DNA of 46,651 nucleotides, taken from positions 1 to 46,651 of the forward strand of contig JAIDPA010000152.1 in NCBI GenBank assembly GCA_029062985.1. The letters run 5' to 3'. The notes under the pieces are model-generated. The model saw only the letters and a list, made by a program, of their open reading frames with translations, had not been told where the DNA came from and ran no database searches. A program made the translations under genes and the position numbers. Shown here piece by piece: positions 7,804-29,450 of the stretch (position 1 is the stretch's first letter; every line of letters begins with the position of its first letter). This DNA comes from Muribaculaceae bacterium (GTDB lineage Bacteria > Bacteroidota > Bacteroidia > Bacteroidales > Muribaculaceae).

Positions 7804-7807
7804 CAGC

Positions 7808-8920: not shown

Positions 8921-8942
8921 GGAACTGTGCCAATGGTTATTT

Positions 8943-8980
8943 AAAAGAGCCGGCGAAAATTACTTGCCGGCTCTTTTTTT
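8943..8980. terminator. Rho-independent terminator, possibly bidirectional
   Basis: 12-bp perfect stem aaaagagccggc / gccggctctttt with an 11-nt loop and a T run. Confidence 0.88.
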
Positions 8981-9768: not shown

Positions 9769-10158
9769 GATTTTTTGTAATATAGTTAAGTTTTGTCATC
9801 TCAACTTTCGGATACTCAACTTGAGCGGGTAAAAGTTGATCTATACTATATAGACGCTGAGAAATACGGAATACTGCATGAAAAGAAAAAATTTTTATCA
9901 GCAGAGGGATTTGGCATTGGCAGTAAATCATGTTTTACGGCACGGTTTACGGCACGCCAACGAAATCTATCCTAAGATTTAAAATTTTTATAGCTGATCA
10001 CAGCTGCTTGGAAGGGATGGAATATTAGCGCTTCGCATGAACCACCGAACGAAGAAGGGGAGGTATTAGGTATAAGTTATGAATTATGAGATTGGCTGTA
10101 AAGGTAAGAATAAAAGGAGAGGAGAGAGGTATATTTTGCTAAGGAATAGATAAGAGTA

Positions 10159-10902
10159 TTATTTATAAAAGGTTATCCAATTTGTTGCATATTTATTTGG
10201 ATTAGGAAAAATATCAATTACATTACCATTAGCATCTCGATACCATGAATGTTTCCAACCGCCCATATCAAGATATATAGCTTCCCAGACTCCCAATTTA
10301 GCCAATTCATAAACAAATTTTCCGAAAGGCAATGCCTTTTTAGAATCAATAATAGCTATCCGATTATTAATCAAACATAACGCACGGAAAATGTTTCTAC
10401 TATTGTAATTACGCCATGATCTAACGATTTGTCCATTGTGAATCATCATATCCTGCGCAAAACCGCATCCATCTGTTTGAGCTTTTTTAAAGTCTTCTAC
10501 CCAGTTGTCGTATGCAAAATGTGGTTTACCATCATAGAAAGAAAAAGCACCTCTATATGATTCGGAGGGAGCACCATTAAAAAATACTCCATTTGAGATA
10601 TGATTTCCGATAATATTCTTATGGTCAAAAGTATCAAGACAGTTGACTGTATATGCAGCTGCACACACCATTATTACATTTTTATTATTCTTGGATGGCA
10701 TTTTTCCGCACTCCAAATCAATTACTGAATAATTTGGATAATAAATATTGAAATACTGAGATGAATCAACTTCTACCGGTTCAAACTGTCTTTTTTGTGT
10801 ATCTTCAGATTGGAAAACCGATGAATCCATAGAAGATCCAACCTTATACTTCGAACATGAATTCACGAAAATTAATATTATAAATATGAGATATTTATTC
10901 AT
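10159..10902 (-). CDS. NAGPA/DUF2233-like lipoprotein
   Basis: MNKYLIFIILIFVNSCSK lipobox; GFAQDMMIHNGQIVRSW..NIFRALCLINNRIAIID..FGKFVYELAKLGVWEAIYLDMGG closely parallels the C-terminus of the 5963..7285 protein. Confidence 0.75.
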   Translation of the reverse strand: MNKYLIFIILIFVNSCSKYKVGSSMDSSVFQSEDTQKRQFEPVEVDSSQYFNIYYPNYSVIDLECGKMPSKNNKNVIMVCAAAYTVNCLDTFDHKNIIGNHISNGVFFNGAPSESYRGAFSFYDGKPHFAYDNWVEDFKKAQTDGCGFAQDMMIHNGQIVRSWRNYNSRNIFRALCLINNRIAIIDSKKALPFGKFVYELAKLGVWEAIYLDMGGWKHSWYRDANGNVIDIFPNPNKYATNWITFYK

Positions 10903-11645: not shown

Positions 11646-12350
11646 CTATAAATTGAGTACGAATCCATTGGGGTCAATAATAAAATCCTTATATAGACGA
11701 GAGTTGGATAATTTTAATCTTCCCCGATTTTTTACAACGAGTTTCCGTAATGAGTAAGAATCGCCTTCAAGGAGATATAATTGACCGGATGGTAAGATGT
11801 AACCTGAGAACAAAGTGTTTTCAATAGGAATGATTCTGCTTCTAACGATGTTTTTATATTTAGTCAGCAGGTTCAGAAAAATCCAGTTTTGTTCATCCAC
11901 TTTTGCCCAAATATTTTTAGCCTCTAAATTTAGAGAGACCTCTTGGTAAACTGGGTCAAGTAAAACTTCTTTTTGAGGAATAGAAAACAGCCCTTCTTTA
12001 TCTTGATTAATAATAATGACTCCGTTATAATAAGGAGAAATTTTAATATCATGATACTTTGGCTCAAAAATGACACATCCCTGATTAAAATTAATTTTCC
12101 ACAATCCTTTTAATCCCATAAGAGACGTGAGCCCCAAAATATAATCTTTCGAGCGAAGAATCTGCACATCATCATAAATGGTAGGGATTAAGACTTTATC
12201 ATTATATTTTATCCCTTTCCAACCATTACGTTCGACAATTTCAAAACCACTATCAGAAGCTATGACAGTTCTTTTCTCAAATCGAAGATCATAATCCTCT
12301 TCTTTCCTAAAAGATAATTCTTCAATAATGTTATTAGTCATGTTTTGCAA
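11646..12350 (-). CDS. WG/KWG-repeat-like protein (last gene of the actin/tubulin-like operon)
   Basis: GWKGIKYNDKVLIPTIYDDVQ and later similar units; start overlaps the upstream CDS. Confidence 0.6.
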   Translation of the reverse strand: MQNMTNNIIEELSFRKEEDYDLRFEKRTVIASDSGFEIVERNGWKGIKYNDKVLIPTIYDDVQILRSKDYILGLTSLMGLKGLWKINFNQGCVIFEPKYHDIKISPYYNGVIIINQDKEGLFSIPQKEVLLDPVYQEVSLNLEAKNIWAKVDEQNWIFLNLLTKYKNIVRSRIIPIENTLFSGYILPSGQLYLLEGDSYSLRKLVVKNRGRLKLSNSRLYKDFIIDPNGFVLNL

Positions 12351-13029
12351 AAAGATTTAGAATGGAAAACACTGTATAAGATGATACACCCGAAGCAGAA
12401 GCCATATCCAATAATTGAGCCCAATCTGTAGATACTTTTTTAGCAATATGAGCATCCATCAATTTAGAATATAGAGGAAGAATATTATCCGGATATGATT
12501 CGGCATACCGCTCATCAAGAATAACAGAGTCAATGAGACGAAAGAAAGAAGGAGGAGGAAGCAGTTTAACTTCCAGAATTATACTGTCTGTTTGAAAAGG
12601 AGATTTCCCCTGTTCACTTAATATGAAATCATTTGACAAGGTTTTTATTTCTACTTCAAAATTTCCAGTTGCTGCCCTTTCCTTAGCGACAATATAATGG
12701 GTATCGGTACATTTTATACAAAAATATTTATTCAAAACACCTTTTGGATTTCTCTCTATTACAGAGAAAACTTCTCCGGGAGCAATATGTGAAATTGAAA
12801 GATTAAGGAAAGGAATCGGATCTTCATTAATCTTTTGATCAATAAAAGATAATATTTCCTGCCTGGAAATATCAGAGCCTTCATTATAGAATTCGAGGTG
12901 TAGAGCAGAGATATTTTCTGCTGTGACATTGAAGGTATCAAAAATATACTTTCGCGATCCCGTTTTCAACACGGGACCACGAAAGAATTTTTGGAATATT
13001 CTTATAGCTTCAGAATTACTTACCGCCAT
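12334..13029 (-). CDS. Hypothetical operon protein
   Basis: 231-aa ORF overlapping neighbours on both sides, consistent with translational coupling. Confidence 0.7.
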   Translation of the reverse strand: MAVSNSEAIRIFQKFFRGPVLKTGSRKYIFDTFNVTAENISALHLEFYNEGSDISRQEILSFIDQKINEDPIPFLNLSISHIAPGEVFSVIERNPKGVLNKYFCIKCTDTHYIVAKERAATGNFEVEIKTLSNDFILSEQGKSPFQTDSIILEVKLLPPPSFFRLIDSVILDERYAESYPDNILPLYSKLMDAHIAKKVSTDWAQLLDMASASGVSSYTVFSILNLFAKHD

Positions 13030-14083
13030 ACTTAATACCTAATTTATCAAGAATAGGACGCACCTCCAATATGTCGATACCATAATTAGTATTTTGCATT
13101 GATTTATCGCCCATTTCATGAACAGCATAGACCAAGCCATTTTCCAGACATACAGGACCACCACTGTTCCCTCCGTTAGTTGGAATAGTGTATTGCATGA
13201 CAGTTAGATCTCTATCATCATAAGGATCTTGTCGATATGCACTTACAGAGCCAGGGGCACTATAGGTCGCTGTAAGACCGTGAGGATTACCTAAGGTAGC
13301 GCAGAAGTCGCCTTGTTTAGCATGTCGATCTGCGAGACTGAAATACGGCACAACCTCATCTCTGTCAAGATCTACCGTAAACACAGTGATATCCAATTGA
13401 GGATTTGTATAATCAATGCGTTTAATCCCACGAGTCTTAGTGCTATATATCCGTGTATCATCAGGATCATCCGCATATAACCAGACACGCCCCGCAGTAT
13501 TTTTTAACACGTGATTATTGGTAATGGCTGTTCCCGTATTGTTAATAAAGAAACCTGTTCCAATACCTTCCGGTGTCTCAATTAAGAATGTGCGTTGCTT
13601 TATATATAAAGCAAGATCGGAAAGTTTAGTTGGAGGAATAGATTTTTCTACCATACTATTATATACGTCCAAAGAATCCACTACGTATGCAGCATCATAT
13701 ACATCACTCCGATATTGATCTATTAAAATTGTGTTAAGGCATTGTGCAACCTCATTACCTTCGGACTTTAATAAAACATATCGATAAACTGTATCATCAT
13801 TTGCTTCAATATCCTCGCCAGTATGTGAATCCCTAATCAGATCCACATAGTTATTTAAGATATTTTTACGAATATATTGTTCTGCCTGTTTGGAATCCTC
13901 TTTAATGCCAAGAAGTTTAACACGAAGCCCCGTGTTCATAATGAGAGTATTCCCTTCAACATCCTCAACATAATAATCTTCTTCACAATCGTGTGAAGAT
14001 TCTGTTACTGCACACGACCTGTATAAGAAAATACCGACTATTAAGGCTCCTGCAATGATTATTAAAAGCTTTTTACTACTCAT
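13016..14083 (-). CDS. Membrane-anchored trypsin-like (HtrA/S1-type) serine protease with apparent N-terminal SNase-like domain
   Basis: Triad-like motifs TAITNNHVL, DITVFTVD, TNGGNSGGPV; hydrophobic N-terminus; ~110-aa segment VKLLGIKEDSKQAEQYIRKNILNNYVDLIRD..YRYVLLKSEGNEVAQCLNTILI resembles the SNase fold. Confidence 0.8.
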   Translation of the reverse strand: MSSKKLLIIIAGALIVGIFLYRSCAVTESSHDCEEDYYVEDVEGNTLIMNTGLRVKLLGIKEDSKQAEQYIRKNILNNYVDLIRDSHTGEDIEANDDTVYRYVLLKSEGNEVAQCLNTILIDQYRSDVYDAAYVVDSLDVYNSMVEKSIPPTKLSDLALYIKQRTFLIETPEGIGTGFFINNTGTAITNNHVLKNTAGRVWLYADDPDDTRIYSTKTRGIKRIDYTNPQLDITVFTVDLDRDEVVPYFSLADRHAKQGDFCATLGNPHGLTATYSAPGSVSAYRQDPYDDRDLTVMQYTIPTNGGNSGGPVCLENGLVYAVHEMGDKSMQNTNYGIDILEVRPILDKLGIKYGGK

Positions 14084-14708
14084 ACTTTACTTTAGCTCTT
14101 TTTATGATTTTCCAGTTTTTTCCGTCTTTAACGATCCCTCCCTTTTCAACTGTTACCATCCGAGATGCCTCAGTTCTGGATTTTCCATTATTGATCACCT
14201 CGATAACTCTTTCTGGGAAGCTTTTCCCAAATTCTTCATTGCCGAATTCATCTAAAGTGGCTTGCACAGAAAACTCACCTGAAGTTTCACCAATAGAAAC
14301 TTCATAAGGATAAGAGGAAATTGAATCTAAATCCTCCTTGGTTTTCATTCTTTTAAAGGAATAATCTCCGTTGAGGAAGACAGGAGATAGTGCATATCGA
14401 ATTTCTCTCTCTTCTTCTCTTAGAGGAGAAGGCTCGGTTTGTTCCTTAATCAGAGTTTTCTCAATTGTCGGCTCAATATTTGATAAATTTTGTGGGGGAG
14501 TTGATATTCCGATATTGCCAGAAGAAGGAACAATAGGTTCAGTTATTCCTCCGTAAGGAGAAGCTGCCGAGATCAGAAAGTTTTCAAGCATTCTGGATAA
14601 AGCTTCTCTCCGTTGTTGTGCACCGATATTTTCAGGGGCGAAAGCTTCCATAACCTCAATAGTGGCGGCATAGAGAGAATTCAGTGCCTTTGTCTGACGA
14701 TCATTCAT
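14076..14708 (-). CDS. Hypothetical cytosolic operon protein; C-terminus resembles that of the 14732..15631 protein
   Basis: 210 aa; PSSGNIG motif and C-terminal KGGIVKDGKNWKIIKRAKVKYE. Confidence 0.65.
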   Translation of the reverse strand: MNDRQTKALNSLYAATIEVMEAFAPENIGAQQRREALSRMLENFLISAASPYGGITEPIVPSSGNIGISTPPQNLSNIEPTIEKTLIKEQTEPSPLREEEREIRYALSPVFLNGDYSFKRMKTKEDLDSISSYPYEVSIGETSGEFSVQATLDEFGNEEFGKSFPERVIEVINNGKSRTEASRMVTVEKGGIVKDGKNWKIIKRAKVKYE

Positions 14709-14731: not shown

Positions 14732-15631
14732 TTATTCTACTTTAAGCCTGGTTATTACTTTCAAATCCCCTCCCTCCTTTCGAAGTTTACCGGCTTCTTT
14801 AGTCTTATATCCTGAAAGTTTGGATGGTTTGACTCCATCCGAGAAGGTCTTCAAGGTATCAAGTTTGGTAGAGATATTATCAACGTTAGGATTCAGTTCA
14901 TAGAATCCGGTTCCTGAAGAAGGATCATACTTGACACGGAAAAGGGCTTGAGTATTGTTCTGATCAAGCGACCAGATAGGGATTGTCAATTCTCCGCTAT
15001 CATCCATGCTAAGAGAGGAAATATAGGAAATCTGATAGGGTGATGACATTTCCTCCCGGACAGATTGAATATTGCCGGAAGAGGGAGTTACAGCCTGCTT
15101 ATTAGTTTTTGTCTGAACTGAAATTTTAGATTTTAAATCATGAATATTTTGATAAATTTTTGCTATATTATCATCTAAATTCCTTGAATCGTATTCAAGC
15201 AGATCAATCTTCCTTTGAAGTGCTTCTATATCTGTTCGGTTATCTCCAATCTTCTTATTAAGTATTCTTAAACTATCTTCAAGATTTTTATTTTTAGAAT
15301 TCTTTTTGGAGTCGAGATATACAAAAATAGATACACCTAAAGCTACTAAAGCAATTATCAAAGCATACCAATCAGTTGTTTTTTCTTTAACAATAGAATT
15401 GGTTTGTGAATTTTCATCCTTTATGTTGTCAGTTTCCGATTCTATATTCTCAGCTTCAGAATTATTCGCTAAAGAATCCATATTCTTCATAACCGAATCT
15501 CCGGGAGTAGCAGCTACTTCTGTTTCAGATGTTTGAGTAGATGATGTTGAATCGTTGCCATTCATCCCCAGTATGGTTGAGCACCATACTGGAGATAAAA
15601 TCAGTATAAGAATTATAAGTAATCTTTTCAT
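14732..15631 (-). CDS. Membrane-anchored coiled-coil operon protein
   Basis: Signal-like N-terminus, TM WYALIIALVALGVSIFVYL, coiled coil, then PSSGNIQ and C-terminal AGKLRKEGGDLKVITRLKVE. Confidence 0.7.
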   Translation of the reverse strand: MKRLLIILILILSPVWCSTILGMNGNDSTSSTQTSETEVAATPGDSVMKNMDSLANNSEAENIESETDNIKDENSQTNSIVKEKTTDWYALIIALVALGVSIFVYLDSKKNSKNKNLEDSLRILNKKIGDNRTDIEALQRKIDLLEYDSRNLDDNIAKIYQNIHDLKSKISVQTKTNKQAVTPSSGNIQSVREEMSSPYQISYISSLSMDDSGELTIPIWSLDQNNTQALFRVKYDPSSGTGFYELNPNVDNISTKLDTLKTFSDGVKPSKLSGYKTKEAGKLRKEGGDLKVITRLKVE

Positions 15632-15641
15632 TACAGTAATA

Positions 15642-18600
15642 TTAGATTTTTAAATCTTTAGTCAGATCAATTCCTAACTTATAAAGACCGTCTTTCAGAG
15701 GCCAGAAGAAAAGACTCTCCTTCAAGCGATTATTTGGCTCTTCTTCTTTATGGTCCGTTTTGTATTTCTGAAGACATGTTGTCATACTGTCATCGAAGAT
15801 ATCCTTCAAATCTTGTTTGGACGGAAGAGAATTCAAAGCAGTATCAAAACCCATATTTGAGAGGGTTTCCCGAAAACGCTCGTTACTTTTCAGAAGTTCA
15901 ATAATCTCATCATAGTGGGAGAGTACCAGATCAGAGAGTTTCTCTCCTCTTATCTGATTATCTCTGACATTTCCTACATTAAGGCGAGTGTCCGGTTCCT
16001 CTTCCTCTATTCCGTAACAAAGGGCACTATCGGTCTTAATGAGTTCAATGCCTTTTGTATGAGCTAAACTGATAGTTACAGCACCTTCTGCTGTCACTTT
16101 CTTAGGATTTGCAGCAAAGAGGATGGTTAATTCGGAACCATTTTTTTTAGTTTGAAAATCTATGATTGTCGCTGCCAGTTGACTCAATTGGTCTCCATTC
16201 CCCAACATCTTGAGATACAAACTGCCCATACCAGTGAACGATAAAATCTTTGGAAGATCTACATCCTGAGATTCAGCTATATGAGCCAGATAATATATAA
16301 GAGATGTGAAATGCAAGATGGGTAAAAGAATCATCTTGGAATTCCGGATAGCATCAGTAAAGCGAAATACATTATCGTTTTTGAAAAGGTAATTAATAAT
16401 ATCGCTTGATCTTTGGGAGAATCCTTCTGTACTTCCACGGGAAGAATTCTTTTTAACCATTTCGTAATCATTTTTCAGATTCGAAGGTAGATTCTTGAAA
16501 TAGTCGGAAGCTTCGTATTGTTTTATAAAACCATTACGGCCTCCTTCAAGCAGAGGATTACATCCGTCTCCCCAGATATCATTTCCTGCGAACATAACAG
16601 AGAATGTAAGTTTCTCATTAGTATCCTTATTATGATAAAAGATATCTGTTGAGCCTCCACCGATATCCATATTGACATAAGGCTTATTTAAGCCTAATAC
16701 CCTGCTGAAAGAATAATATGGGGCAATACTCTCGAAATGAAATTTAATATTATCCCCATCAAGTCCGATTGTCTCAGCTGCTTCTCTCCACGCATTACGG
16801 AAGTCATTTTCTACTCTGCCATTCATTGCCTGAGGGTATGTGACGGCAACTTTAATATTACGCTTTCCTCCATTTAGGACGGATTTATTACGCATGAGCA
16901 GCAACAGTTCCTGGAAGAATACTCTGATTCTCTCCTTTGTATGAGTATTGGAGGTATCCCATTTCAGATCTGTTATATATCTATTCGCCCCGGTCCCGGT
17001 AGTCATCTCGTTGGTATAGTTGAATCCAATATTAATAGCTCCGAAAAGGCGTGGATGTTGCACAGTATCGAGACTGCTGACCTCACAGACAGCAGTGCGA
17101 ATAGGAAATAGGTCAGGACTCATTTCAGAGGTAACGAATTCTCGGCGTGCCATATCGGCAAAATCGGTGAACATACCGAAACCGGCACCAATTAAATGTT
17201 TTCCATCCTTGACACTGTGGTTATTTAGATAAATGGTCTGAAGTTCTTCATCTTCAGAATCAAGACGAATATTGAAAGAATCAATAGAGCCGTTATTGCA
17301 GGAATAAGCCACCTGAGTATTTGTTGTGCCAAAATCTACACCAAACACATAATCTGCGCTTGGGTTTGTAGTATTTACCTCTCTGAGCTTAGGTAGTACA
17401 AGACCATAAGCAGGAAAATCTGTTCCAAAAGAAACTTCAACTATATCGAATGGCTTATTTACATTATAATGAATAGACTGAAGTGTATTCCCATTTTCTT
17501 TCTTGGTTCTGACCTCTCTTTTGATTTCTCCTTGTTCTCCGGTAGATGCTTGGAATACATTTTGGAATGCTTCATCTGGTTTTTCAAGATCATAAAATCT
17601 CAGGTTGGTTTCATCTGCAGAGGCCACTAACATAACATCATATTCATTTTTAACATTCTTTGCTTTATCCTTAAAGAACGGGAAAAATGCGATATTGAAT
17701 GTGTTTGCGGAAGCCATGGCAGATACAATTTCTCCTTCCTCTTTTGAATATGTTTTGGATAGTGGTAGTTTTTGACCGGATTCCAATGGAATATTTAATG
17801 TGGCAGTTATTTTCTCCACCAATCCATCCGGAGAATAGGCTACATCGAGACTATACATATCCTTAAGCTCCTGCGGAGAGAAGTATTTGAAGAACTCTCT
17901 TTTCAGAGGAAGAAGAAAAGTAGTGTCTTCCTCCAGTCCGGTATGGAATTTATCCTTATGAATATTATAGCTCAGTTGGATAATCTTATCCTGGAAGAAA
18001 TCTTCTGAGCGAAGATATGGATATGTAATTTCTGTTCCGGGAAGTTTACGTTCATATAGAGGAATTTGAACATCTCCTGGAGTTAGGGAACCCGCAGCCC
18101 AATATGTATTATCAACATACCGAGCCGCCCCTATTCCAAACTCATTAAGGACTAAAGGAGTCCTGAGTGTTTTTTGTGCACCGTTGACAGATATGTTGGC
18201 GTAAGTGCTTTGAGAAGGCTTAATCTTATAGTCAGATTGAAAGTTGATGTTGGCAAGATCTTTTACCCACATCGTGATACCTTTCCCGATTATAAGTGCA
18301 GTATTGTTAATTTGAAGTGGAATATAAGTCTGACTGCCCTGGAATCCGTTCTTCAGGCTCTGTTCCATCTGTTGCGGAGTCTGTGCAGCAAATTTATTCA
18401 ACATGTTGGCGAGTTCAAGATCATCATTCACATCCCGATTAAGATTATCAGCTATATACTGACCTATTTCAGTGCCTGTAAATGCAGACGTGTAAGTTTT
18501 ATACAGTTTATAGACATACTCCTTGAACTCTTTCGATCGGTCTTTTAACGGTAGAGGAGAATTAGTGTCGAACAGACGATGACCATTACTTAATCCCGGG

Positions 18601-19115
18601 AAGGTTTTCGTAAGATTCGGATTTGTATAAAAAAGAGATAGAGGGGAAGTGCCGCCAATAATATCGTTGCCATATTTAATCAATATGATATCTCTGCCCA
18701 TATAATTTGCATTATTCCAGGCAGAGAGTAAAGCTTCTCCCAAGCCACTGTGTCCCGGAAGAGGTGAGTTTTTCAGGGCTTGCGCCTGTTGGTCTACATT
18801 CCAGCGGATAAGGGAAAGTTCAGAACTTGCGCCATATAGATAAAGGAATTCCAATGTGTCAAGTGCCAGACTGACAAGTTTCTGATAGTTAGGAGCAGCC
18901 GTAGAAGAGAATGCAGAGCCTGATGCATTGATCTCTTTAAATGCTGAATTAAAGAGATGAAGACGAGCGAATGGTGTAGGTATGGATGTTCCGAGTTTAT
19001 TCAGAAGAGTGCCGGAAATATTTGCGCTTTCCGGTATCCCTGCAATATCAGGATTTTCTTGTTTGAACCCCCCCACAACATTAGAAGAGGGTTCTATGGT
19101 AAGAGCGTGAGACAT
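15642..19115 (-). CDS. 1157-aa protein with C-terminal Hsp70/actin-like ATPase domain
   Basis: Phosphate-1-like FGVDFGTTNTQVAYS, phosphate-2-like NMDIGGGSTDIFY, adenosine-like LSFTGMGSLYLKML. Confidence 0.85.
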   Translation of the reverse strand: MSHALTIEPSSNVVGGFKQENPDIAGIPESANISGTLLNKLGTSIPTPFARLHLFNSAFKEINASGSAFSSTAAPNYQKLVSLALDTLEFLYLYGASSELSLIRWNVDQQAQALKNSPLPGHSGLGEALLSAWNNANYMGRDIILIKYGNDIIGGTSPLSLFYTNPNLTKTFPGLSNGHRLFDTNSPLPLKDRSKEFKEYVYKLYKTYTSAFTGTEIGQYIADNLNRDVNDDLELANMLNKFAAQTPQQMEQSLKNGFQGSQTYIPLQINNTALIIGKGITMWVKDLANINFQSDYKIKPSQSTYANISVNGAQKTLRTPLVLNEFGIGAARYVDNTYWAAGSLTPGDVQIPLYERKLPGTEITYPYLRSEDFFQDKIIQLSYNIHKDKFHTGLEEDTTFLLPLKREFFKYFSPQELKDMYSLDVAYSPDGLVEKITATLNIPLESGQKLPLSKTYSKEEGEIVSAMASANTFNIAFFPFFKDKAKNVKNEYDVMLVASADETNLRFYDLEKPDEAFQNVFQASTGEQGEIKREVRTKKENGNTLQSIHYNVNKPFDIVEVSFGTDFPAYGLVLPKLREVNTTNPSADYVFGVDFGTTNTQVAYSCNNGSIDSFNIRLDSEDEELQTIYLNNHSVKDGKHLIGAGFGMFTDFADMARREFVTSEMSPDLFPIRTAVCEVSSLDTVQHPRLFGAINIGFNYTNEMTTGTGANRYITDLKWDTSNTHTKERIRVFFQELLLLMRNKSVLNGGKRNIKVAVTYPQAMNGRVENDFRNAWREAAETIGLDGDNIKFHFESIAPYYSFSRVLGLNKPYVNMDIGGGSTDIFYHNKDTNEKLTFSVMFAGNDIWGDGCNPLLEGGRNGFIKQYEASDYFKNLPSNLKNDYEMVKKNSSRGSTEGFSQRSSDIINYLFKNDNVFRFTDAIRNSKMILLPILHFTSLIYYLAHIAESQDVDLPKILSFTGMGSLYLKMLGNGDQLSQLAATIIDFQTKKNGSELTILFAANPKKVTAEGAVTISLAHTKGIELIKTDSALCYGIEEEEPDTRLNVGNVRDNQIRGEKLSDLVLSHYDEIIELLKSNERFRETLSNMGFDTALNSLPSKQDLKDIFDDSMTTCLQKYKTDHKEEEPNNRLKESLFFWPLKDGLYKLGIDLTKDLKI

Positions 19116-19121: not shown

Positions 19122-20726
19122 TTATTTTAGATTGAGTTTTTCATTTACCACATTTATGGAAGCTAAATAAAGTGAATGGAAGAAAGCATAGCTTAAGGTG
19201 TCTGTTGGAATTATTTCCTTATCTTTTCCTTCCGGCATGTGAAGAGTCTTATATTTTGAAGACATTTCACTAAATAGATCAGAAGGCTTTAAGGAGGGCA
19301 CCATTTTCGATTTCCTCCATAATTTTTCTTCTTTTCGGAAAGGATGAGTCTTCAGAGTATCGCAGAATTCGGAAGCATTGAAATCAAAATTGATAAGTTT
19401 ATGGATTGAACCTTCTTCAAGTTCATTCATCCACTCAGCGAAAGAGTGATAGTATGCGATAAATTTATCAAGAGTTTGTTGGAATACTTTCTGACTATCA
19501 GATTTTTCAGCCATTTTTTTATCTAATCCGGATAGTTTATAAAAATTGGCAGAGGAGCAGTCCTTGTTATTCTTTATCATATAGTCTTCCACAACTTTGC
19601 CGGCTAAAGCAAAGGCTATCAGATGATAAATCTCATTCTTTGATTCTTCAGCGAACATTGAAAAGTCGAGATCCTGAACATCATCGATATGCTGATTCTG
19701 ATTAAATCCATATTTCCAGTGATTCTTTAAATTTCCTGTAGCGTCTTCCTCTTCAAAAGATTTTGCCGGCAAAGAATTAAAATGAGTAATTGCCATAGCA
19801 CTTACCAATTCCACAATATGGGCAGGATTCTTCTGCTGCTCCTTACCAACATGATGTTGTACAGTATCTTTATTTTTATCACCGATATAATAAATTGCAT
19901 CAATTTTATCATTCAGAGCATCCTGATAATAATAGAGTGCTGCTTTAGTCTTCGATTCGAATATTTTATCATCAATCACACCCTGACTACGTTCATCCTC
20001 CTTTGGAGATCCTATTTTGAAATAGGGGCATACGAGAATCGTAGAGATTTTTGCAGAGTTAACTCCGGTGCGTTGACTGGTACGAATGGCATTTACTAAT
20101 ACAGGGATTCCTGAAGAACCGGTTCCCCCAAAAAGAGAACCTATGATAACCACTCTGTCATTTTGGGTACATAAACGTGAGAATTCTTTGAATTCTTTTG
20201 TTTCACTAAGATTATTAAGCATAACACTACCGATGTTCGGATTTCCGCGAAACCCGACGGTTGTATCAATATGCAGCTCTGCCACTTCCTGGTTTTGGGA
20301 TGTGTTATAGAGAGTATCAATAAGGAATTGAGTAGTCTGAAGCTCACCTGATAATGCCGAGTAACCGATACTATCGCTATATTTTTTAGCACTGCTTGGA
20401 GGGTTATATTGCAGATTGAAAGTGCTTTCTCCTCCTTGAGTCTTTAATGCCTCTTTCATTTCCATTACATCAGTAGAAAAGAACCCGTTCTTTGTACGAG
20501 TTCCATCGAATGTTACCCCGGAATAAATGTCAGAGTGAAGAGCTGAATATTTATACAGAGAATCAAGAGCCCGAAGTTTATCTCCATTAGTAACATCATA
20601 ATCAATAATAATCGGGAAAACACGAGTATCACCCATATTTCCTCCATTGGCGGCAATAAGCATATTGAAAGCACGTATCACTCGGGCACCAGTACCACCA
20701 ATTCCAAAAATAAATAAGTTTGCCAT
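19122..20726 (-). CDS. Tubulin/FtsZ-like GTPase (Tubulin_2-type)
   Basis: N-terminal FIFGIGGTGARVI (T1-like) and VVIIGSLFGGTGSSGIPVLVNAI (tubulin T4 GGxTGxxG signature at ~20109-20141). Confidence 0.85.
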   Translation of the reverse strand: MANLFIFGIGGTGARVIRAFNMLIAANGGNMGDTRVFPIIIDYDVTNGDKLRALDSLYKYSALHSDIYSGVTFDGTRTKNGFFSTDVMEMKEALKTQGGESTFNLQYNPPSSAKKYSDSIGYSALSGELQTTQFLIDTLYNTSQNQEVAELHIDTTVGFRGNPNIGSVMLNNLSETKEFKEFSRLCTQNDRVVIIGSLFGGTGSSGIPVLVNAIRTSQRTGVNSAKISTILVCPYFKIGSPKEDERSQGVIDDKIFESKTKAALYYYQDALNDKIDAIYYIGDKNKDTVQHHVGKEQQKNPAHIVELVSAMAITHFNSLPAKSFEEEDATGNLKNHWKYGFNQNQHIDDVQDLDFSMFAEESKNEIYHLIAFALAGKVVEDYMIKNNKDCSSANFYKLSGLDKKMAEKSDSQKVFQQTLDKFIAYYHSFAEWMNELEEGSIHKLINFDFNASEFCDTLKTHPFRKEEKLWRKSKMVPSLKPSDLFSEMSSKYKTLHMPEGKDKEIIPTDTLSYAFFHSLYLASINVVNEKLNLK

Positions 20727-20742: not shown

Positions 20743-21258
20743 TTAGAAAGGTATTTGTGTACTGTTTACGGAATACCGCTTGAAACAAAGAGATGTACCA
20801 AGGAAAAGGAGCCATGCCCACCCTGCACAAGTCAGGTCAAACGGAATCCTGACATCTTTCTGTTTTCTGAGTTCATTTTCTATTTTGATTTTAAACTTTG
20901 GATATTCCTTTGCATTTGGTTTTTTTCTATGTTCTTTAACCCATTCAGAATTAGTTCCGTAGAAAGTTGACGGAGAATTCGAACCCTGACCACCAATGAG
21001 GAAAATATCCGCTCCAAAATAACCGATCACTGCAACTACAATCGAAATAATCCACCAATTAAGGGGTTTAGCCAGAGTGTAGTTCTTATCCATTACAAAG
21101 TAGAATATACCTGCTGCTACAACTGCTATGATTAGGGCAAGGATTAATCCCCAAAGAAAACCATTGTGGGTTATGAAGAAATTGTTGTGAAACCCGAGAG
21201 CGTCTTTGTAAGACTCACTTCCGCTTACAGGGAAGAAGAAAAATTCAAAAATTTTCAT
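20743..21258 (-). CDS. Small multi-pass membrane protein of the operon
   Basis: 171 aa; several hydrophobic segments (FLWGLILALIIAVVAAGIFYFVM; WWIISIVVAVIGYFGADIFLI; LTCAGWAWLLFLGTSLCF). Confidence 0.75.
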   Translation of the reverse strand: MKIFEFFFFPVSGSESYKDALGFHNNFFITHNGFLWGLILALIIAVVAAGIFYFVMDKNYTLAKPLNWWIISIVVAVIGYFGADIFLIGGQGSNSPSTFYGTNSEWVKEHRKKPNAKEYPKFKIKIENELRKQKDVRIPFDLTCAGWAWLLFLGTSLCFKRYSVNSTQIPF

Positions 21259-21278: not shown

Positions 21279-22517
21279 TTAGTCAGTATATTTGAAGGTT
21301 ATCTTTACTTCATGGTTTTTAGTTGCGTCAGACATTGGCTCAAGCAAAGATTTAAGTTGATAAGTCCTTTTCTGCTGATCCGAGTCTGAGAGAATATTTG
21401 AGTCATCATCAGAACTGTAGTTATGAGTCCATTTATTCGTAGGATTTGCGGAGAATGAAAGGGTGAGGGTGGTTTCTCCATCTCCTGCGTTGATTTGCAA
21501 GTCGTTGCTCGGAACTTCCAATGTCAATTGGTTATCCTGAAAATAAGTAGACCAATTAGAAATCGTAGTTCCATTGATGGTTACAACAGCTCCATGTTCT
21601 TGCAAAATCTTTTTTGATTTTACTATATCATAAAGACAGGAGGGAATATCTGCAATCAACGATATTTTTTTCTCTGAATTGGAGGTGTTTAATTTATAAT
21701 AATAGTCTCCTAATTCTGTGAAATCAGTATTAGTAGAGACATAGAATTTTAGGTCGGAATGGTCATCATGGGAATTGAAGGCTAACCATTCGCACTCCCA
21801 CTCTTCATCCCATTTCTTCTCATTTTCTTTAGTCTTGTTAATGATATATCTGATTTGAGGTTTTGGACCGACCAAGATAATATAGAAAGGTCTTTCAGAT
21901 ATTTTCAGATTTACTTTTTTAGAAGGTTTTTGACTCTCAACGTAGTATATGCCATCATAATTAGACTCGCCTCGAAATATCATCCAGCCAAGATTAGAAT
22001 TTTTATTCATTAAGGCTCTTTTGATATCGGAAATCATCTGTGGAATATCATTTTTCCCTTGGGGGGTACTTACAATACCATCGGTGATAATAGCTACAGG
22101 TATAGAGTCTCCTCCATATTCGATGCTATTTTCAATAATTTTAGCCATGTCGGTATCCTTATTGAAATTAGTGGTTGCCAGTATTCCGTCTGCATTACTT
22201 TTAGCCTGAATAGGTTTCGGATCTCCATCAAACTTGATGCTACCTTTCTCTTTTCCTAAATCCTGCATGGCAGTTATTGCAGACATCATACTTTGCATAT
22301 CCTTAGAATTGAAATAGCCTTTCATGCTTCCTGATTTATCTATAAGGATCTTGACTGTTTCAGGTTGCTCAGCTAATTCAGTCTGAGAACCATCCCCTTC
22401 TGTACTCCCATCCTCACTACCTGAATCCCCATTACTTCCTCCGCAAGCCACATATATTACACTTACAGTCAGAATAAGAGTAAGAGTAGATGCGATTTTT
22501 ATAAAATTTTTATTCAT
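21279..22517 (-). CDS. vWA-domain lipoprotein
   Basis: ORF 21279..22586; start MNKNFIKIASTLTLILTVSVIYVACGG at 22517; MIDAS DKSGSM (22323-22340) and VAIITDG. Confidence 0.83.
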   Translation of the reverse strand: MNKNFIKIASTLTLILTVSVIYVACGGSNGDSGSEDGSTEGDGSQTELAEQPETVKILIDKSGSMKGYFNSKDMQSMMSAITAMQDLGKEKGSIKFDGDPKPIQAKSNADGILATTNFNKDTDMAKIIENSIEYGGDSIPVAIITDGIVSTPQGKNDIPQMISDIKRALMNKNSNLGWMIFRGESNYDGIYYVESQKPSKKVNLKISERPFYIILVGPKPQIRYIINKTKENEKKWDEEWECEWLAFNSHDDHSDLKFYVSTNTDFTELGDYYYKLNTSNSEKKISLIADIPSCLYDIVKSKKILQEHGAVVTINGTTISNWSTYFQDNQLTLEVPSNDLQINAGDGETTLTLSFSANPTNKWTHNYSSDDDSNILSDSDQQKRTYQLKSLLEPMSDATKNHEVKITFKYTD

Positions 22518-22530
22518 GAGTTGGTATATT

Positions 22531-24726
22531 TTAAAGTATAACTTTTGCTTTTTGATCAGGTTGACCAGGTATACGGTATCCGACACAAACTATATCTGTG
22601 ATTATGTTGTCTGTGTCAAGACGGTCCACCTTATCAAGGTGCTGACGGGAATTTGGACAGATATAATCGAGATTAGGAATCTCTCCGGGTCGGTATTCAA
22701 AATCGCCCTCCTTAACATTGTCGCAGAAAGGAGTAGGAATAATAAGTTCGATACCAACCAGAGCAAGCATCTTTGTCAGATATTTTTCGAGTTTTGAGAG
22801 TTTAGCATAATCAAGTCTCATATAATCTTCCCCTTGATCATCTCGCATAAAGGGTAGACGGCTGTAAGCACAGAGTCTTGCCAACGGTGTAATCGTGCCT
22901 TCAGCTTCCTTATTAACTTCTTCAGAAAGTATGACAAGAAGGGCAGCCTGCATATTCCCTACGGTTGGATACTCTTCAGGCTTTAACGATTCAAGTTTAT
23001 TGACAATTTTAGAGAAACGACGTTTGTTTGATTCCTCATCATCTGCACAGGTTTCTCCCATCTCTCCATGGCCGAGTTCATATTTACCTTCATCAAGGAT
23101 TTCCAGAACTTTTTTAGCCTCATTAAGTACGGAGGAACGGAACTCCGATACACTTTTATCCGCACGAATATTTGCAGCGGATAAATCAGTATTCAAACCC
23201 TCAATCCTAATGTTCAATTCCTCAATATCCTTAATGTTGGTATTGATTTGATTATCTTTTTCAGTTACAACGGATTTTAGGTTATCAATTCCTGATAAGG
23301 CTTGTTCTAACTCGGAAGTCAGTTCTTCCTGTTCTTTCTGAAGTTCATCAATCTTACGGTCTTTGGAAGAATTTTCGTTGTTCAATTTTTCAATCTCTTT
23401 AAGCTGAAGATTGGTAGTTTTATTCAGATCCTTTATCTCCTCTTCTTTATCATGAAGCTGACTGTTCAGATTATTTATTTCCTTGTCTTTTGAAGAAATA
23501 TTCTCTTTAAGTTCCTGAATATCCGAAGTCAGTTTCTCACATTCCTTTTCTTTATCTGCTATCGCTGCTTTCAAGGTAGAAATTTCTGTATCTTTAGAAG
23601 CAACTATCTCGTCATGTTTAGAAATGCGTTCATTCAGGGAATTGATTTCCTCTTTAGCTTTATCTAACGAGTCACGAAGTTTTCCGGCATCCGTCTCCTT
23701 AAGTTGCTTATTTTCTTCTCTAAGAGTCTTAATTATATTAGCTGCTTGTTTGCCATTTTCAACTGATTCGTCATGTTTTTTCTGAAGTTCCTCTAATTCT
23801 TTCTCTTTTTGATCAAGAGATAGTTGGATCTCAAGATTCTTCTCTTCTAAGGATTTGATTCGATCATCAAGTTCACGATTTGCCTGACTTTCATTATCAC
23901 TGAGTTTGTCTCTTTCTTTCTTAAGAGAGTCGATCTGAGAATTTTTTCGTTGAAGCTCTTCCTTTAAATCAGAGATTTCACGATCTTTCTGTTTTCTTAA
24001 ATTCTTTTTTTCTTCAACTTCCGCATCTTTCTTTTTTCGAAGTTCAGTTATTTGCTTTTTGAGATTTTCAATTTCAATTTTTTCACATTTTGTTGTTGAT
24101 TCCGTATTTCCTAATGCGGAATCAGAGTTTTGACTTTGTACATTCTGATCATGAGAATCTTTACTATCATTTTTCAGATTTTCATTTTCAGCACTAAGTT
24201 GATTCAATTTTTGTTTCAACTCTCTTATTTCAGAATCTTTAGAATCTTTTAAATCGGAAATAGATTCTTTAAGGGTGGTTATAAGAAAAGTTGTATCATT
24301 AGGTATATTAATCAAATCCGGCTCAAGTGTTTTGATCATATCCTTAATGGTTATTTCAAAAGTATTACTGCGTCTTTTGAGAGTATCTAATTCATGTTTT
24401 AGATTATCAATTTCTGCAGAATTATCCTCTTGGATTGGTTGGACAGGAGAGATTTTGATTCCTCCAATCTTCATAAGAAGCCGCTGAAAGGCATTATACA
24501 CCGGCTGCTCAATTATCTGAGGAGATGAAGACAATTGCTCTTCGACTTCTTGATTATCATTGTTTTCAGCCAGTTCCTCTTTTGTGTTTTCATTCGGGTT
24601 AGCCGAGAAACCGGTAGCAGACAGAACAGATGGTTCTGAAATTTCAGATGTTGGCTTTGAGGGGTCAGAAGTTTTGGGAGCAGTTTTTTCAGTACTGTTA
24701 TTTGATTTAGTTTTATTATTAGCCAT
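22531..24726 (-). CDS. 731-aa cytosolic coiled-coil protein with C-terminal globular domain
   Basis: ~400 aa of heptad-like E/K/L/N-rich sequence, then ~190-aa non-coiled C-terminus. Confidence 0.82.
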   Translation of the reverse strand: MANNKTKSNNSTEKTAPKTSDPSKPTSEISEPSVLSATGFSANPNENTKEELAENNDNQEVEEQLSSSPQIIEQPVYNAFQRLLMKIGGIKISPVQPIQEDNSAEIDNLKHELDTLKRRSNTFEITIKDMIKTLEPDLINIPNDTTFLITTLKESISDLKDSKDSEIRELKQKLNQLSAENENLKNDSKDSHDQNVQSQNSDSALGNTESTTKCEKIEIENLKKQITELRKKKDAEVEEKKNLRKQKDREISDLKEELQRKNSQIDSLKKERDKLSDNESQANRELDDRIKSLEEKNLEIQLSLDQKEKELEELQKKHDESVENGKQAANIIKTLREENKQLKETDAGKLRDSLDKAKEEINSLNERISKHDEIVASKDTEISTLKAAIADKEKECEKLTSDIQELKENISSKDKEINNLNSQLHDKEEEIKDLNKTTNLQLKEIEKLNNENSSKDRKIDELQKEQEELTSELEQALSGIDNLKSVVTEKDNQINTNIKDIEELNIRIEGLNTDLSAANIRADKSVSEFRSSVLNEAKKVLEILDEGKYELGHGEMGETCADDEESNKRRFSKIVNKLESLKPEEYPTVGNMQAALLVILSEEVNKEAEGTITPLARLCAYSRLPFMRDDQGEDYMRLDYAKLSKLEKYLTKMLALVGIELIIPTPFCDNVKEGDFEYRPGEIPNLDYICPNSRQHLDKVDRLDTDNIITDIVCVGYRIPGQPDQKAKVIL

Positions 24727-24750: not shown

Positions 24751-27700
24751 TTAGATAGTTGCGGGCCAGATGCTTCGGCGTGTAATTTCATTATTCAAAT
24801 CAATACCACGTGGAGCACTGCCTGAAGTGGGAGCTTTATCGACATAAAGAGATATTTGATTATGCCTATCTATATTGATTGCCATCTCAAGGGTGTCTCT
24901 ACCTCCAAAAGAGGAGAGATTGAAAGTATTCATTTCCGAAATATACTCAAAGTCACCGTTTTTAATAGCATTTAGGGTCTCCTCCTGAGGAAGATATGAC
25001 TGAATTAGCTTAATATCTTCGGTATGACTCAATCCGGAAATGAGAATAGGAGGAAATTCCTTCGAAGAATTATCTGAGTTAAGAGGCATATCGTTATGCG
25101 AAGCAAGTTCGATATAATCCCATTCACCGCCAAGATGTCTGAAGGCGACCCCGAAAGAGGCATATAGTCTGCGAGAGCGGATATGAACTTTAGAATTGTT
25201 GGAATTATACGACCCGGCAAATTTAACGGCACCTTCAACAACAGCTGTCTTCTGCCGATCGTGTTCTCCATTTATATCCAAATCGATAAAACGGATACCT
25301 TCAGAATCAGAGGAAAATTCGTTCAATGACTTACTGAGAACTTCTTGTAAAGGCTGAAGTCTGACACTTCGACCAGAGAGTATCACAGAGTCAATATCCA
25401 TTTCTCCACCCAGATAGTTTCTCATGCTTTTCAGAACCTGAGTCGTCACCTGAAATAGATATTTCCTAAAATCCGGATGGTTGATAACATCTCTGATTTT
25501 AATTTCTATCTCCTCATCATTATATTCAAAATTGATGATCTTATCTTCATTTTCAATAGATAGCAATGGTTTAAGGGAATTCTTGACAAAGTCTTTAAGC
25601 ACAATACGTCCACGGGCGATACGGTCAGCATTCACACCTGCAGGGCGTTCTGTGTCGGCAAGATTCTTCGTGGCTTTTCCCCCGATTTTGGCAACGATCT
25701 TAGCCAAAATGAAATCGAGATAATTACCTGCTTTGCTAATACCGAGTTTACCTTTAATATCAAGAAGATAAGAATCTTTTTGTGGATTATAGGTTTTGGA
25801 AAGATATGTGAGGTCAAGAGTGCCGGCACCCATGTCGAAAACAAGTATGTTTTCAGGTTTCTTTATATCCCCTCCGGGATTATACTCACTCCAATGATCC
25901 ATATAATATGCGGCTACAGCATCACTTTCGCTCACGAATTGTAATTGCCCTTCGCGCAGATATCTGAAAGTGTCAGTAGCAATATTTCGTAATACTTTAA
26001 GATGATCAGGAGTGTATGAATTGGGATATGTGAGAACAAGTTTGTTTACACGTTCAATGTGAGGGATAAGCTTACTAAGATAATGACGGAATACAACTTT
26101 ATAAGCCTCATCGAAAAGATTATTGATTGAGGCAAGAGAGTTGGATTCATTATTTTCTTTAGCATCAGAAAGACGAACTTTTCCGAGATTTTCATTATCA
26201 TCTTTACGATAATACTCAAATGCATTATAGTCAGGATTATCAGGAAGATATTTATTCCCGACAAGAAGTTTCAGACAGGGTAGGATTCTCTGGTAGTTAC
26301 TCTTTGCAACATTATTGGTAGGCGCAAGACAAACAGCCGTTTTAGAATAATCCAATTGTTCCTGAGTCTGTTCTCCACATAACATTGAGATCGGATTTTC
26401 CGGATCAATTCCTGTCACGGTGTTTAAAAGAAGGTCTGAAGAAATAAAGACAGTATCTCTTTCAGTTTCATTCTCATTACCCTTCGTCCGGGGATACCAA
26501 TCTTTACTTGACTTCCCCAGTTGATTCAGAATATCTTTTCTCCGGGCATTAAGGTCAAGCAAATCTCCCTTATAAAGACTGACGATTGCACTTGAACCAT
26601 AGTCAACACAGAGCCACTCCGGGAAGGGTAGTATATACATTTCCCGAGATAGAACTATACGGAAAGTTTTACGCTCCACTTCTGACCGAGGTCTGTTATC
26701 ACTATTTTCGTAATAATCAATTTCGATAGAAGTCGAAACAGAGAAACGATATTGTCCTCCACTGTTTATGGAAAATATATCGGAAGGATTATACATCACT
26801 TTAAGTTTTTCCGGCACGGTGTCTCCATTAGGGATATCAATATATCCTCTTTCTTCAGTTATTTCATAGAAATCACCTTCAAGGGAAACAATCTTATTAA
26901 TATCGACAGGACGTCCATTAGCTCCGTATATATGAATTCCCTCTTGTTCAATGGAAGTAGATATGCGGGGAGTCATTATCCTCAGATAACCATCGCGGGT
27001 TGCATCTGTCGCTATATTATCAAGTTCGATTATTACCTCCTTACGAAAAGCCCCGCCGGGCGAAAAATCAAAAACAGGCAGTATTGAATTGTGACCGGAT
27101 GACAATGGATTACCATTCATTGTTACTCTTAGTTCAGTGCCCTGTGTATCTTTCATTAAGCGAATGGCTTTATTCTCCTGAAAAATATTAGGAATATCGG
27201 GTTGATAAGAGTAAGCCCAGCTGCCGTTGAAAAGAATTGAGAAAAAGTCATAAGGCTCGACCGGATTGGGAATGCCTGAAAAATTAATTTTAATTTCTTT
27301 TCTTAATGGTTTATAGTCTCCGTTACCATCTACTTGTATTGGGAGAGAACGCACTTCTTGCCGCATAATGTCATTCTTCCCGGATTCTGAAAAGAATATT
27401 CGTGGGGTTATTTCCCCGTTTTCATCTAAGAGAGGGGGCAGTTCCCTGCCTTTAGAATCCACTAAGGAGAGTGTCCCTTTAAAATTAATCTTAGGTGAAC
27501 GTTCAAACTTTTTAGGATTAAATATTTGAATAGCTCCAACTGACACGATTCTATCAGCCGGAAGATCTTTAAAATTAATTCTACGATGAGGAATAGAAAA
27601 CTCGACTTTTACGTCAGCTTTGATCTCTTTAAATTCTACATTGATTTTGAATTCTTGCGAGTCAAGTTCCTCTCCCTTTTTATTTAGGACAAAAGCTGTC

Positions 27701-28119
27701 CCGGTCACGGAATATTGATCTGATATTCCATTGTCGGCTTCACCTTGAATAACTTCACAGTCAGCAATAAGGGAGGGATTGAAATAAAGCTGAAAAGGAG
27801 TTCTCTCTTTTGTAAGTGTTACAGGAATGGGATTGTCAGTGAGTTCATGGCGTTGACCTTCCACAACAAGACTAAACAAATCGCGGGGAGTTATTCCGGA
27901 TTTGAGGATTAACGACTTTGAGCATTTAATGTCTCGAACTCCAATAGACACATCTTTCAAGGAACGTTTCATACTGATTCTTTTTAGTATGCGTCCCATC
28001 ATATTGTCGAAATCACGTGGAGGAAAATCAACGAAAAGTGATTCTGATATGGGAACCAAGCTTCGTTGAGATTCTTCTAAATCAATGATTACGCGTTCTT
28101 GAATTTTATCTTTTGACAT
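24751..28119 (-). CDS. 1122-aa protein with C-terminal divergent Hsp70/actin-like ATPase domain
   Basis: EWLCVDYGSSAIVSLYKGD, ILVFDMGAGTLDLTYLS, VILSGRSVRLQPLQEVL (phosphate-1, phosphate-2 and adenosine-like motifs). Confidence 0.8.
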   Translation of the reverse strand: MSKDKIQERVIIDLEESQRSLVPISESLFVDFPPRDFDNMMGRILKRISMKRSLKDVSIGVRDIKCSKSLILKSGITPRDLFSLVVEGQRHELTDNPIPVTLTKERTPFQLYFNPSLIADCEVIQGEADNGISDQYSVTGTAFVLNKKGEELDSQEFKINVEFKEIKADVKVEFSIPHRRINFKDLPADRIVSVGAIQIFNPKKFERSPKINFKGTLSLVDSKGRELPPLLDENGEITPRIFFSESGKNDIMRQEVRSLPIQVDGNGDYKPLRKEIKINFSGIPNPVEPYDFFSILFNGSWAYSYQPDIPNIFQENKAIRLMKDTQGTELRVTMNGNPLSSGHNSILPVFDFSPGGAFRKEVIIELDNIATDATRDGYLRIMTPRISTSIEQEGIHIYGANGRPVDINKIVSLEGDFYEITEERGYIDIPNGDTVPEKLKVMYNPSDIFSINSGGQYRFSVSTSIEIDYYENSDNRPRSEVERKTFRIVLSREMYILPFPEWLCVDYGSSAIVSLYKGDLLDLNARRKDILNQLGKSSKDWYPRTKGNENETERDTVFISSDLLLNTVTGIDPENPISMLCGEQTQEQLDYSKTAVCLAPTNNVAKSNYQRILPCLKLLVGNKYLPDNPDYNAFEYYRKDDNENLGKVRLSDAKENNESNSLASINNLFDEAYKVVFRHYLSKLIPHIERVNKLVLTYPNSYTPDHLKVLRNIATDTFRYLREGQLQFVSESDAVAAYYMDHWSEYNPGGDIKKPENILVFDMGAGTLDLTYLSKTYNPQKDSYLLDIKGKLGISKAGNYLDFILAKIVAKIGGKATKNLADTERPAGVNADRIARGRIVLKDFVKNSLKPLLSIENEDKIINFEYNDEEIEIKIRDVINHPDFRKYLFQVTTQVLKSMRNYLGGEMDIDSVILSGRSVRLQPLQEVLSKSLNEFSSDSEGIRFIDLDINGEHDRQKTAVVEGAVKFAGSYNSNNSKVHIRSRRLYASFGVAFRHLGGEWDYIELASHNDMPLNSDNSSKEFPPILISGLSHTEDIKLIQSYLPQEETLNAIKNGDFEYISEMNTFNLSSFGGRDTLEMAINIDRHNQISLYVDKAPTSGSAPRGIDLNNEITRRSIWPATI

Positions 28120-28157: not shown

Positions 28158-29450
28158 TCAGAGGTGCGTTATGCTAATGGTTTTGTCATCAGGAATATAT
28201 GTGGCAGTCTTTTTGAGCCATCGGTATGCAATGATCAAAATTATACCGATTGTAATGACAACTATAATAATATCCCAAATTATGACTGCGAGAAACGGGT
28301 TATTCGGAGCCCACCACCATAACCAATCTGAGAGGGGAATAAATCCTAAAATTTTAGAATCGTCACTCAATTTTACAATTTGGGAATTGCTTAGTCCCGT
28401 TTCGTATCGAGGATTATCGGGACTCAAGAGAATACCATTATACATACCATCGCGTAAGATGAGATTCATACGCATATTGATTGAATCTCCGGCTGATAGC
28501 TTTTGGGAAGAAATATGAAATTGTCCTTTAGCTTCAGGAGAGTTAACAAGGGTATCTCCGGCAGCATTCAGGAGAATAAATTTACTGATCTTATATTCTT
28601 CCGAAATAGGCTGAGCATCAATATCAAGCAGGAATCCTCCTCTTACTCTCTGTAGGGGAAGAGGAGATGGAAGAGTGGTGGCTGAATGGATGGATGGTTG
28701 AACTGATGGTATTAGTTCGTGCCATATAATTCTATATCCTCCATTAGGAGATAGCGGAGTCTCTCTGTTAGAGTCAAGAGTGATGAATTTAAATTTATTA
28801 TTGAATTGTCGCATATCTTCAAACACTTCAGATTCAATTTGATTGAACCGAGTGAAATTTGAAGAACCAGCAGTTGCGATATTTCTCCACTCTTTTGCAT
28901 AGTCATTATGACCCCCATTACTAATATCATCAGTAATGGTGAGGAGATAAGTATGATTTGCAACTGAATGTAAAGAATCGGAAGGAGTTTGTTTTAGAGC
29001 TGTTACTGAATAAGGTTTAGCAAGTATCTGGGCAGAAGCTGCAGGACCATTTTTTAAGTCCGGCTGCCCGAAGGGCCATGGGTTAAAGGCGGAAAACAGA
29101 TTTTCATTTTTTGCAATATGCCACTTCCATGTTTTTCTATCTTTAGTTGTATATGGACGTGCGAAGCGGTTCATATCAGGATAACCCATTTCAAGAGCAT
29201 ACCCAATTACGGATATATAATCAATGTCGGGGTTATACCCATGTTTAATTAGATCTTTTTCAATCTTTTTGAGAATAGTAGGGTTATTATAATAATCTTG
29301 ATATATACCGACATAAGGATCAAAAGAGATAATATAGTGATCGGGTAAGCGTGTAGACGCTTTGGCAGAATCTGAAGTAATTGCCAAGACGATTCCTATC
29401 AAAAGATAAAAGTAGATTTTCAAATTAGATGGGTATAGAAAATGGGACAT
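28158..29450 (-). CDS. Exported, C-terminally membrane-anchored protein, possibly degenerate vWA-like (first gene of operon)
   Basis: Signal peptide; YIISFDPYVG..TYLLTITDDISNGG; C-terminal TM FLAVIIWDIIIVVITIGIILIIAYRWLKK. Confidence 0.7.
   Translation of the reverse strand: MSHFLYPSNLKIYFYLLIGIVLAITSDSAKASTRLPDHYIISFDPYVGIYQDYYNNPTILKKIEKDLIKHGYNPDIDYISVIGYALEMGYPDMNRFARPYTTKDRKTWKWHIAKNENLFSAFNPWPFGQPDLKNGPAASAQILAKPYSVTALKQTPSDSLHSVANHTYLLTITDDISNGGHNDYAKEWRNIATAGSSNFTRFNQIESEVFEDMRQFNNKFKFITLDSNRETPLSPNGGYRIIWHELIPSVQPSIHSATTLPSPLPLQRVRGGFLLDIDAQPISEEYKISKFILLNAAGDTLVNSPEAKGQFHISSQKLSAGDSINMRMNLILRDGMYNGILLSPDNPRYETGLSNSQIVKLSDDSKILGFIPLSDWLWWWAPNNPFLAVIIWDIIIVVITIGIILIIAYRWLKKTATYIPDDKTISITHL

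Follow-up and report, generated by a model that had tools for sequence, protein, structure and literature searches.

The DNA analyzed here (hereafter, the window) is a contig of 46,651 nucleotides (JAIDPA010000152.1) from the genome of a Muribaculaceae bacterium (GCA_029062985.1). Its reverse strand carries an operon in which the gene for a tubulin-like protein (TUB) is followed by the gene for a large actin/Hsp70-like protein (HSP1), with 6 bp between the stop codon of the former and the start codon of the latter (TAA aaagac ATG). This spacing had already been noted in an earlier inspection of the letters alone (the sequence-only reading), and the 1157-aa gene does begin exactly there. From the head of the operon to its last conserved gene, the features are

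28158..29450, (-) strand: 430-aa protein with a C-terminal membrane helix (TM 389-407), at the head of the extended operon
24751..28119, (-) strand: HSP2, second large protein of predicted Hsp70/actin fold, 1122 aa, matching the HSP1 family profile
22531..24726, (-) strand: coiled-coil protein of the extended operon version, 731 aa, with coiled-coil matches only
21279..22586, (-) strand: vWA-like lipoprotein, 435 aa, with a lipobox Cys and a MIDAS-like DKSGSM, recognized by motif conservation
20743..21258, (-) strand: 171-aa small membrane protein with two or more predicted membrane helices; its family occupies the position immediately before TUB in 104 of 119 loci
19122..20726, (-) strand: TUB, predicted Tubulin_2/FtsZ-like GTP-binding protein, 534 aa (Pfam, AlphaFold/Foldseek, loop motifs)
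15642..19115, (-) strand: HSP1, predicted large actin/Hsp70-fold ATPase, 1157 aa (family profile, Foldseek, invariant motifs)
14732..15631, (-) strand: membrane/coiled-coil accessory protein, 299 aa, family f4, with two hydrophobic segments
14076..14708, (-) strand: 210-aa protein matching the f4 profile
13016..14083, (-) strand: trypsin-like serine protease, 355 aa, with an N-terminal membrane anchor (TM 6-24; PF13365, 1.7e-18)
12334..13029, (-) strand: 231-aa conserved accessory protein of the extended operon, family f29, with homologs in the same position
11646..12350, (-) strand: 234-aa protein with a weak WG repeat (PF14903, 0.0058), family f9, the last conserved gene of the extended operon

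TUB contains both of the T1/T4-type nucleotide loops that the sequence-only reading had picked out, FIFGIGGTGARVI and GSLFGGTGSSGIPVLV. When 38 homologs (20-35% identical to the window protein) are aligned, the core of T1 (I9, G10, G11, G13, R15) and that of T4 (S197, F199, G200, G201, T202, G203, P208) are invariant, and because this holds down to 20% identity, the loop cores can be taken as functional motifs rather than chance resemblances. The T1 loop and the glycine-rich T4 signature GGTG[ST], the combination by which we recognize the tubulin superfamily, are thus both in place. The sequence-only reading had suggested a comparison with PF13809, TubZ, and FtsZ. The window copy matches PF13809 (Tubulin_2) at E=5e-5 and 23.1 bits, under the curated Pfam cut-off of 27 bits, and PF00091 at E=7e-4, also under the cut-off; across the family, 28 of 38 members match PF00091 and 22 of 38 match PF13809 (E<=0.01). 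Profile-profile comparison with FtsZ of Bacteroidota brings T3-T4 into register, weakly (E=0.036).

The family-based AlphaFold model of TUB (mean pLDDT 77.7, pTM 0.87) has a nucleotide-binding domain of tubulin fold, and the best 50 Foldseek matches in the PDB are all CetZ, FtsZ, or tubulin (E down to 3.7e-4). This is so despite low TM-scores, about 0.2-0.27 by query and 0.2-0.43 by target (e.g., 0.26/0.40); the part common to TUB and the tubulin/FtsZ structures is therefore the nucleotide-binding domain. The C-terminal half of the model is nearly all helical, an FtsZ/tubulin C-terminal domain is not evident in it, and the helices are separate, with no coiled-coil family match for the protein. 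Residues Q298, H303, and E306 are conserved among the 38 homologs, and no conserved acid that could belong to a T7 catalytic loop was found C-terminal of E306 in that alignment. Given the family Pfam matches, the fold matches, and the invariant T1 and T4 cores, TUB is a divergent member of the tubulin superfamily (Tubulin_2/FtsZ-like) and is not FtsZ, as the sequence-only reading had it. It would be expected from its loops to bind GTP. Filaments of FtsZ and tubulin rely on T7 catalysis and on the C-terminal domain; neither is evident in TUB, so GTPase activation or polymerization may not occur.

It should be noted that TUB is not a "second" tubulin of this stretch, as had been claimed: the signature was found in none of the other ORFs or reading frames of the window. 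FtsZ and a second Tubulin_2 protein (34 bits, above the PF13809 cut-off) are encoded elsewhere in the same genome, on contigs C114 and C215, respectively.

HSP1 begins with ~590 residues of unassigned fold, and its nucleotide-binding domain starts from near residue 590. A profile built from 36 relatives matches mortalin/Hsp70 (1e-5) and MreB (3e-5) in the PDB, and Foldseek returns MreB and DnaK (1e-8 to 1e-7). Single relatives match models for Ppx-GppA, FtsA, EutA, and MreB, all of which we take to have the actin-like ATPase fold. Invariant across the 36 homologs are D594/G596/N599, K718, E795, D817/G819/G820/D824, and G962; all three nucleotide-site motifs (phosphate-1, phosphate-2, adenosine) are retained, and so is a catalytic-type Glu, E795. 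Judged by these motifs, HSP1 is a predicted member of the actin/Hsp70 ATPase superfamily and probably binds ATP. It is not a canonical Hsp70, which would combine a PF00012 match with a C-terminal substrate-binding domain: neither HSP1 nor any of its 35 relatives matches PF00012, and the nucleotide domain occupies the C-terminal half. Its relative HSP2 matches DnaK (E=0.007) and MamK (E=0.0096), with DYGSS, DMGAGTLD, and SGRS motifs visible.

The pairing of TUB with HSP1 is not accidental. Within the family, TUB is present in 35 of 149 genomes (24%). HSP1 occurs in all 35 of these (E<1e-40) but in only 1 of the 114 genomes that lack TUB, and that sole case is a contig-edge fragment; the other TUB-negative genomes show at most MreB-level background in the HSP1 search (Fisher p about 2e-33, with shared ancestry ignored). 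We assembled 119 TUB loci, 80 of them from public genomes mostly across Bacteroidota, including Hymenobacter, Pontibacter, Spirosoma, Dyadobacter, Flavobacterium, Pedobacter, and Prevotella (at least one genome is counted twice, as L025 and L132). The core order across these loci is vWA lipoprotein, small membrane protein, TUB, HSP1: HSP1 is within the next two genes after TUB in 111 of 119 loci, mostly at a gap of less than about 20 bp, and a vWA homolog lies no more than three genes upstream of TUB in 108. On two cyanobacterial plasmids (L199 and L200, both complete records), TUB and HSP1 are accompanied by a vWA gene and a small ORF, arranged as in the other loci except that one plasmid has its vWA gene in the opposite orientation. 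Matches in MAGs assigned to Sulfuricurvum (L109), Leptospiraceae (L133), and Clostridium (L139) may be misbinned and were not relied on. Pairwise divergence of TUB correlates with that of HSP1 (r=0.96, 82 loci); any operon inherited as a unit would be expected to show this, and it is no proof of contact. The co-occurrence (35/35 vs. 1/114 genomes) and the conserved gene order establish that the pairing is not due to chance.

The vWA-like protein has its lipobox Cys48 in 93 of 99 homologs, and D169 is kept in every one of the 99. The MIDAS-like motif is [DE]xSxSM, with E in 81 homologs and D in 18; the window protein has no Pfam vWA match. Beyond HSP1, most operons (88 of 119) encode a coiled-coil membrane protein (family f4), and in 40 of the 119 (e.g., L098, L133, L138) a MotA/ZorA-like gene occurs together with a MotB/ZorB-like one. 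The MotA-like protein of these operons has a long helical tail and matches ZorA models. Its MotB-like counterpart has an invariant Asp at the MotB position and is matched by ZorB models and, in the PDB, by ZorB chain 8qyd. The window operon lacks both ZorA and ZorB motor genes. Its version has the coiled-coil protein, HSP2, and the 430-aa membrane protein upstream and the trypsin-like protease (present in 24 of 119 operons) downstream. The 731-aa coiled-coil protein, in which no membrane helix is predicted, has homologs that take the corresponding position in about 10 related loci, and homologs of the 430-aa protein precede HSP2 in several. No P-loop GTPase family was found in the window operon, where one GxxxxGKS motif, in the 210-aa protein, appears to be a chance occurrence. 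A second subtype of the module is present in the same genome (L035, contig C215, positions 1-10046), and relatives of that subtype (L052, L053) have TerD-domain proteins and another large ORF downstream.

Overall, the module was found in about 3% of the phylum sample. Adjoining it in the window are type IX secretion/gliding genes (31428-37654: gldN, gldM, gldL, an FGE-sulfatase-like gene, porP). A link between the module and these gld genes was considered and rejected as coincidence, as only the window locus has both; three genomes of the same genus retain the gld and glycosyltransferase genes with other genes in the module's place. The interval from the left end of the window to the module contains a PD-(D/E)XK transposase-family gene (4862-5803) and a Fic-domain gene (7808-8920). 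The same part of the window holds three related ORFs (3535-4413, 5963-7285, 10159-10902), two of them weakly phosphodiester-glycosidase (NAGPA)-like and one DUF218.

How unusual is this arrangement? The sequence-only reading held that direct pairing of the two cytoskeletal folds is uncommon, and this was overstated. The genes ftsA and ftsZ are a classic actin-tubulin pair, and weak Hsp70-profile matches at a distance of about 1 kb from ftsZ, seen in several genomes, fit with this, so such pairing is not in itself remarkable. As in FtsA-FtsZ, whose products cooperate at the membrane, TUB and HSP1 are neighbors of tubulin and actin fold. However, they belong to other families, their gene order is reversed, a vWA lipoprotein is a further partner, and T7 acids are not evident.

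More closely related operons are on record. For FtsZl1 proteins, Makarova and Koonin (2010; PMC2875224) reported predicted operons with vWA, GTPase, and OmpA neighbors and proposed membrane remodeling; the alignment figure there includes a Bacteroides caccae sequence. The FtsZl1 family corresponds to Pfam Tubulin_2 PF13809 (PMC9871819). FtsZl1 and TUB have in common a divergent FtsZ/tubulin N-terminal GTPase domain with T1 and T4 loops, and the FtsZl1 operons and the module have in common a vWA gene (here in 108/119 loci), with OmpA-family proteins in some FtsZl1 genomes. In FtsZl1 a long coiled coil follows the FtsZ-like domain, whereas in the module coiled coils are on operon proteins other than TUB. 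A P-loop GTPase or kinase is described as often lying near FtsZl1, and none was seen in the window operon. The searched text of PMC2875224 names no Hsp70, DnaK, or actin-like partner and does not mention a MotA-like motor, although the HSP1 family may be among the unnamed associated families in its additional files.

Conflict systems that combine vWA with tubulin, along with others that include Hsp70, were reported by Kaur et al. (2020; PMC7159879). Like the module, these DO-GTPase/GAP1-N2 systems associate tubulin-domain proteins with membrane or extracellular vWA proteins and with the membrane. In contrast, tubulin and Hsp70 are non-overlapping themes there and are paired in the module, and each of those systems is centered on a TRAFAC GTPase and GAP1, whereas the window operon has no P-loop GTPase. 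Zorya (PMC11890865) shares a ZorA/ZorB-type motor with about 40 module loci, but not with the window operon. ZorC, ZorD, and ZorE were not recognized in the module gene maps. We know of no tubulin or Hsp70 parts in Zorya.

Our preferred reading, to which we would give somewhat better than even odds (roughly 0.55), is that TUB is a divergent GTP-binding protein of the tubulin superfamily and the obligate partner of an ATP-binding HSP1 in one envelope-linked complex. Such a complex would comprise the vWA-like lipoprotein outside the inner membrane, the small protein within that membrane, and TUB and HSP1 in the cytoplasm; at other loci, a coiled-coil membrane protein would join it, as would a Zorya-like proton motor. 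The periplasmic vWA module, with the motor where present, would sense or transmit the state of the envelope via the small membrane protein, TUB in its GTP state would assemble or switch at the membrane, and the HSP1 ATPase would control the assembly or disassembly of TUB or tie its assembly to the coiled-coil proteins, in a manner comparable to FtsA and FtsZ. The envelope would be remodeled or stabilized as a result. We infer the envelope link, and the topology given here, because the vWA protein carries a lipobox Cys and a MIDAS-like motif, a small membrane protein belongs to the core, and ~40 loci have the ZorA/ZorB-like pair. Physical contact between TUB and HSP1 would be expected. Counting against this reading are the T7 acids and FtsZ/tubulin C-terminal domain that are not evident in TUB, the lack of motor genes in the window operon, a vWA metal site that is mostly E rather than D, the low fold TM-scores, and the weak FtsZ profile comparison (E=0.036).

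A bolder version, which we put forward tentatively and consider rather unlikely, is that TUB and HSP1 co-assemble as a two-nucleotide envelope machine that a Zorya-like proton motor drives or gates in many species. It would be a second actin-tubulin partnership, one that evolved independently of FtsA-FtsZ.

Among the alternatives, the one that fares best, although we regard it as doubtful, is a conflict or anti-phage system in which infection is detected at the envelope and TUB and HSP1 respond by assembling, so that the invader is contained or the cell dies, along the lines of Kaur et al. (2020) or Zorya. The patchy spread of the module (24% of family genomes, about 3% of the phylum sample) is what such a system might show, as are the ZorAB-like motor in about 40 loci, the TerD proteins of the second subtype, the copies on cyanobacterial plasmids, and the combination of vWA and tubulin in published conflict systems (PMC7159879). 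However, the operon encodes no nuclease or other obvious effector, a search of phage records for the module gave no match, and in a PADLOC scan of ten operon proteins, generic trypsin and coiled-coil matches aside, none strongly matched a specific system. In a set of 75 flanking proteins, most belong to housekeeping families with no recurrent defense family (there was no matched control set for this comparison), and because of this the flanking context neither requires nor excludes a defense role.

The sequence-only reading had proposed a stoichiometric actin-tubulin pair. Adjacency and co-occurrence uphold a functional tie between the two proteins, and it is the implied cytoskeletal polymers that are not supported, given unconserved T7 acids and a four-gene, membrane-linked operon. 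It is quite unlikely, then, that TUB and HSP1 each polymerize to form a joint, dynamic actin-tubulin structure for cell shape, positioning, or DNA segregation. Filament formers do exist in both superfamilies, the nucleotide loops of both proteins are intact, and coiled-coil partners are encoded in the operon. Yet TUB has no evident FtsZ-type C-terminal domain, the ~590-aa N-terminal region of HSP1 is unlike filament-forming actins, HSP1 matches Hsp70 as well as MreB, and the accessory distribution speaks against a core role in cell shape.

The finding that the sequence-only reading thought would overturn it, a plain Rossmann NAD-binding protein without T7 residues and without interaction with its neighbor, is not borne out as to the fold: the T7 acids are not conserved, but the fold and family matches are to the tubulin superfamily. 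A Rossmann-type nucleotide-binding protein whose glycine loops happen to resemble those of tubulin might explain a window copy below the Pfam cut-off, the low TM-scores, and the weak FtsZ comparison. The C215 paralog above the curated cut-off, the 28 of 38 family members that match PF00091, and a set of best 50 folds drawn entirely from the tubulin superfamily make this very improbable, and the plain Rossmann/NAD-binding assignment was rejected on the AlphaFold/Foldseek and family Pfam matches. Finally, islands can carry unrelated genes, and congeneric genomes lack the module beside their gld genes, but that TUB and HSP1 are functionally unconnected and adjacent by chance or through a common mobile element has a negligible probability and was rejected given an order kept in 119 loci in Bacteroidota and Cyanobacteria and the 35/35 vs. 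1/114 co-occurrence.

FtsZ-like/vWA operons have been on record since 2010, although without a mechanism, and vWA/tubulin conflict systems since 2020; we found no report in the open-access literature of the near-obligate HSP1 partner and the link to a Zorya-like motor. That partner, the fixed four-gene core, and the optional proton motor together define a concrete and testable complex. It poses the questions of which protein binds which, whether the GTP and ATP cycles are coupled to each other, and what the vWA lipoprotein would sense, and there are hosts of the module in culture (Hymenobacter, Pontibacter, Spirosoma, Pedobacter, and Prevotella lacticifex) in which they may be pursued.
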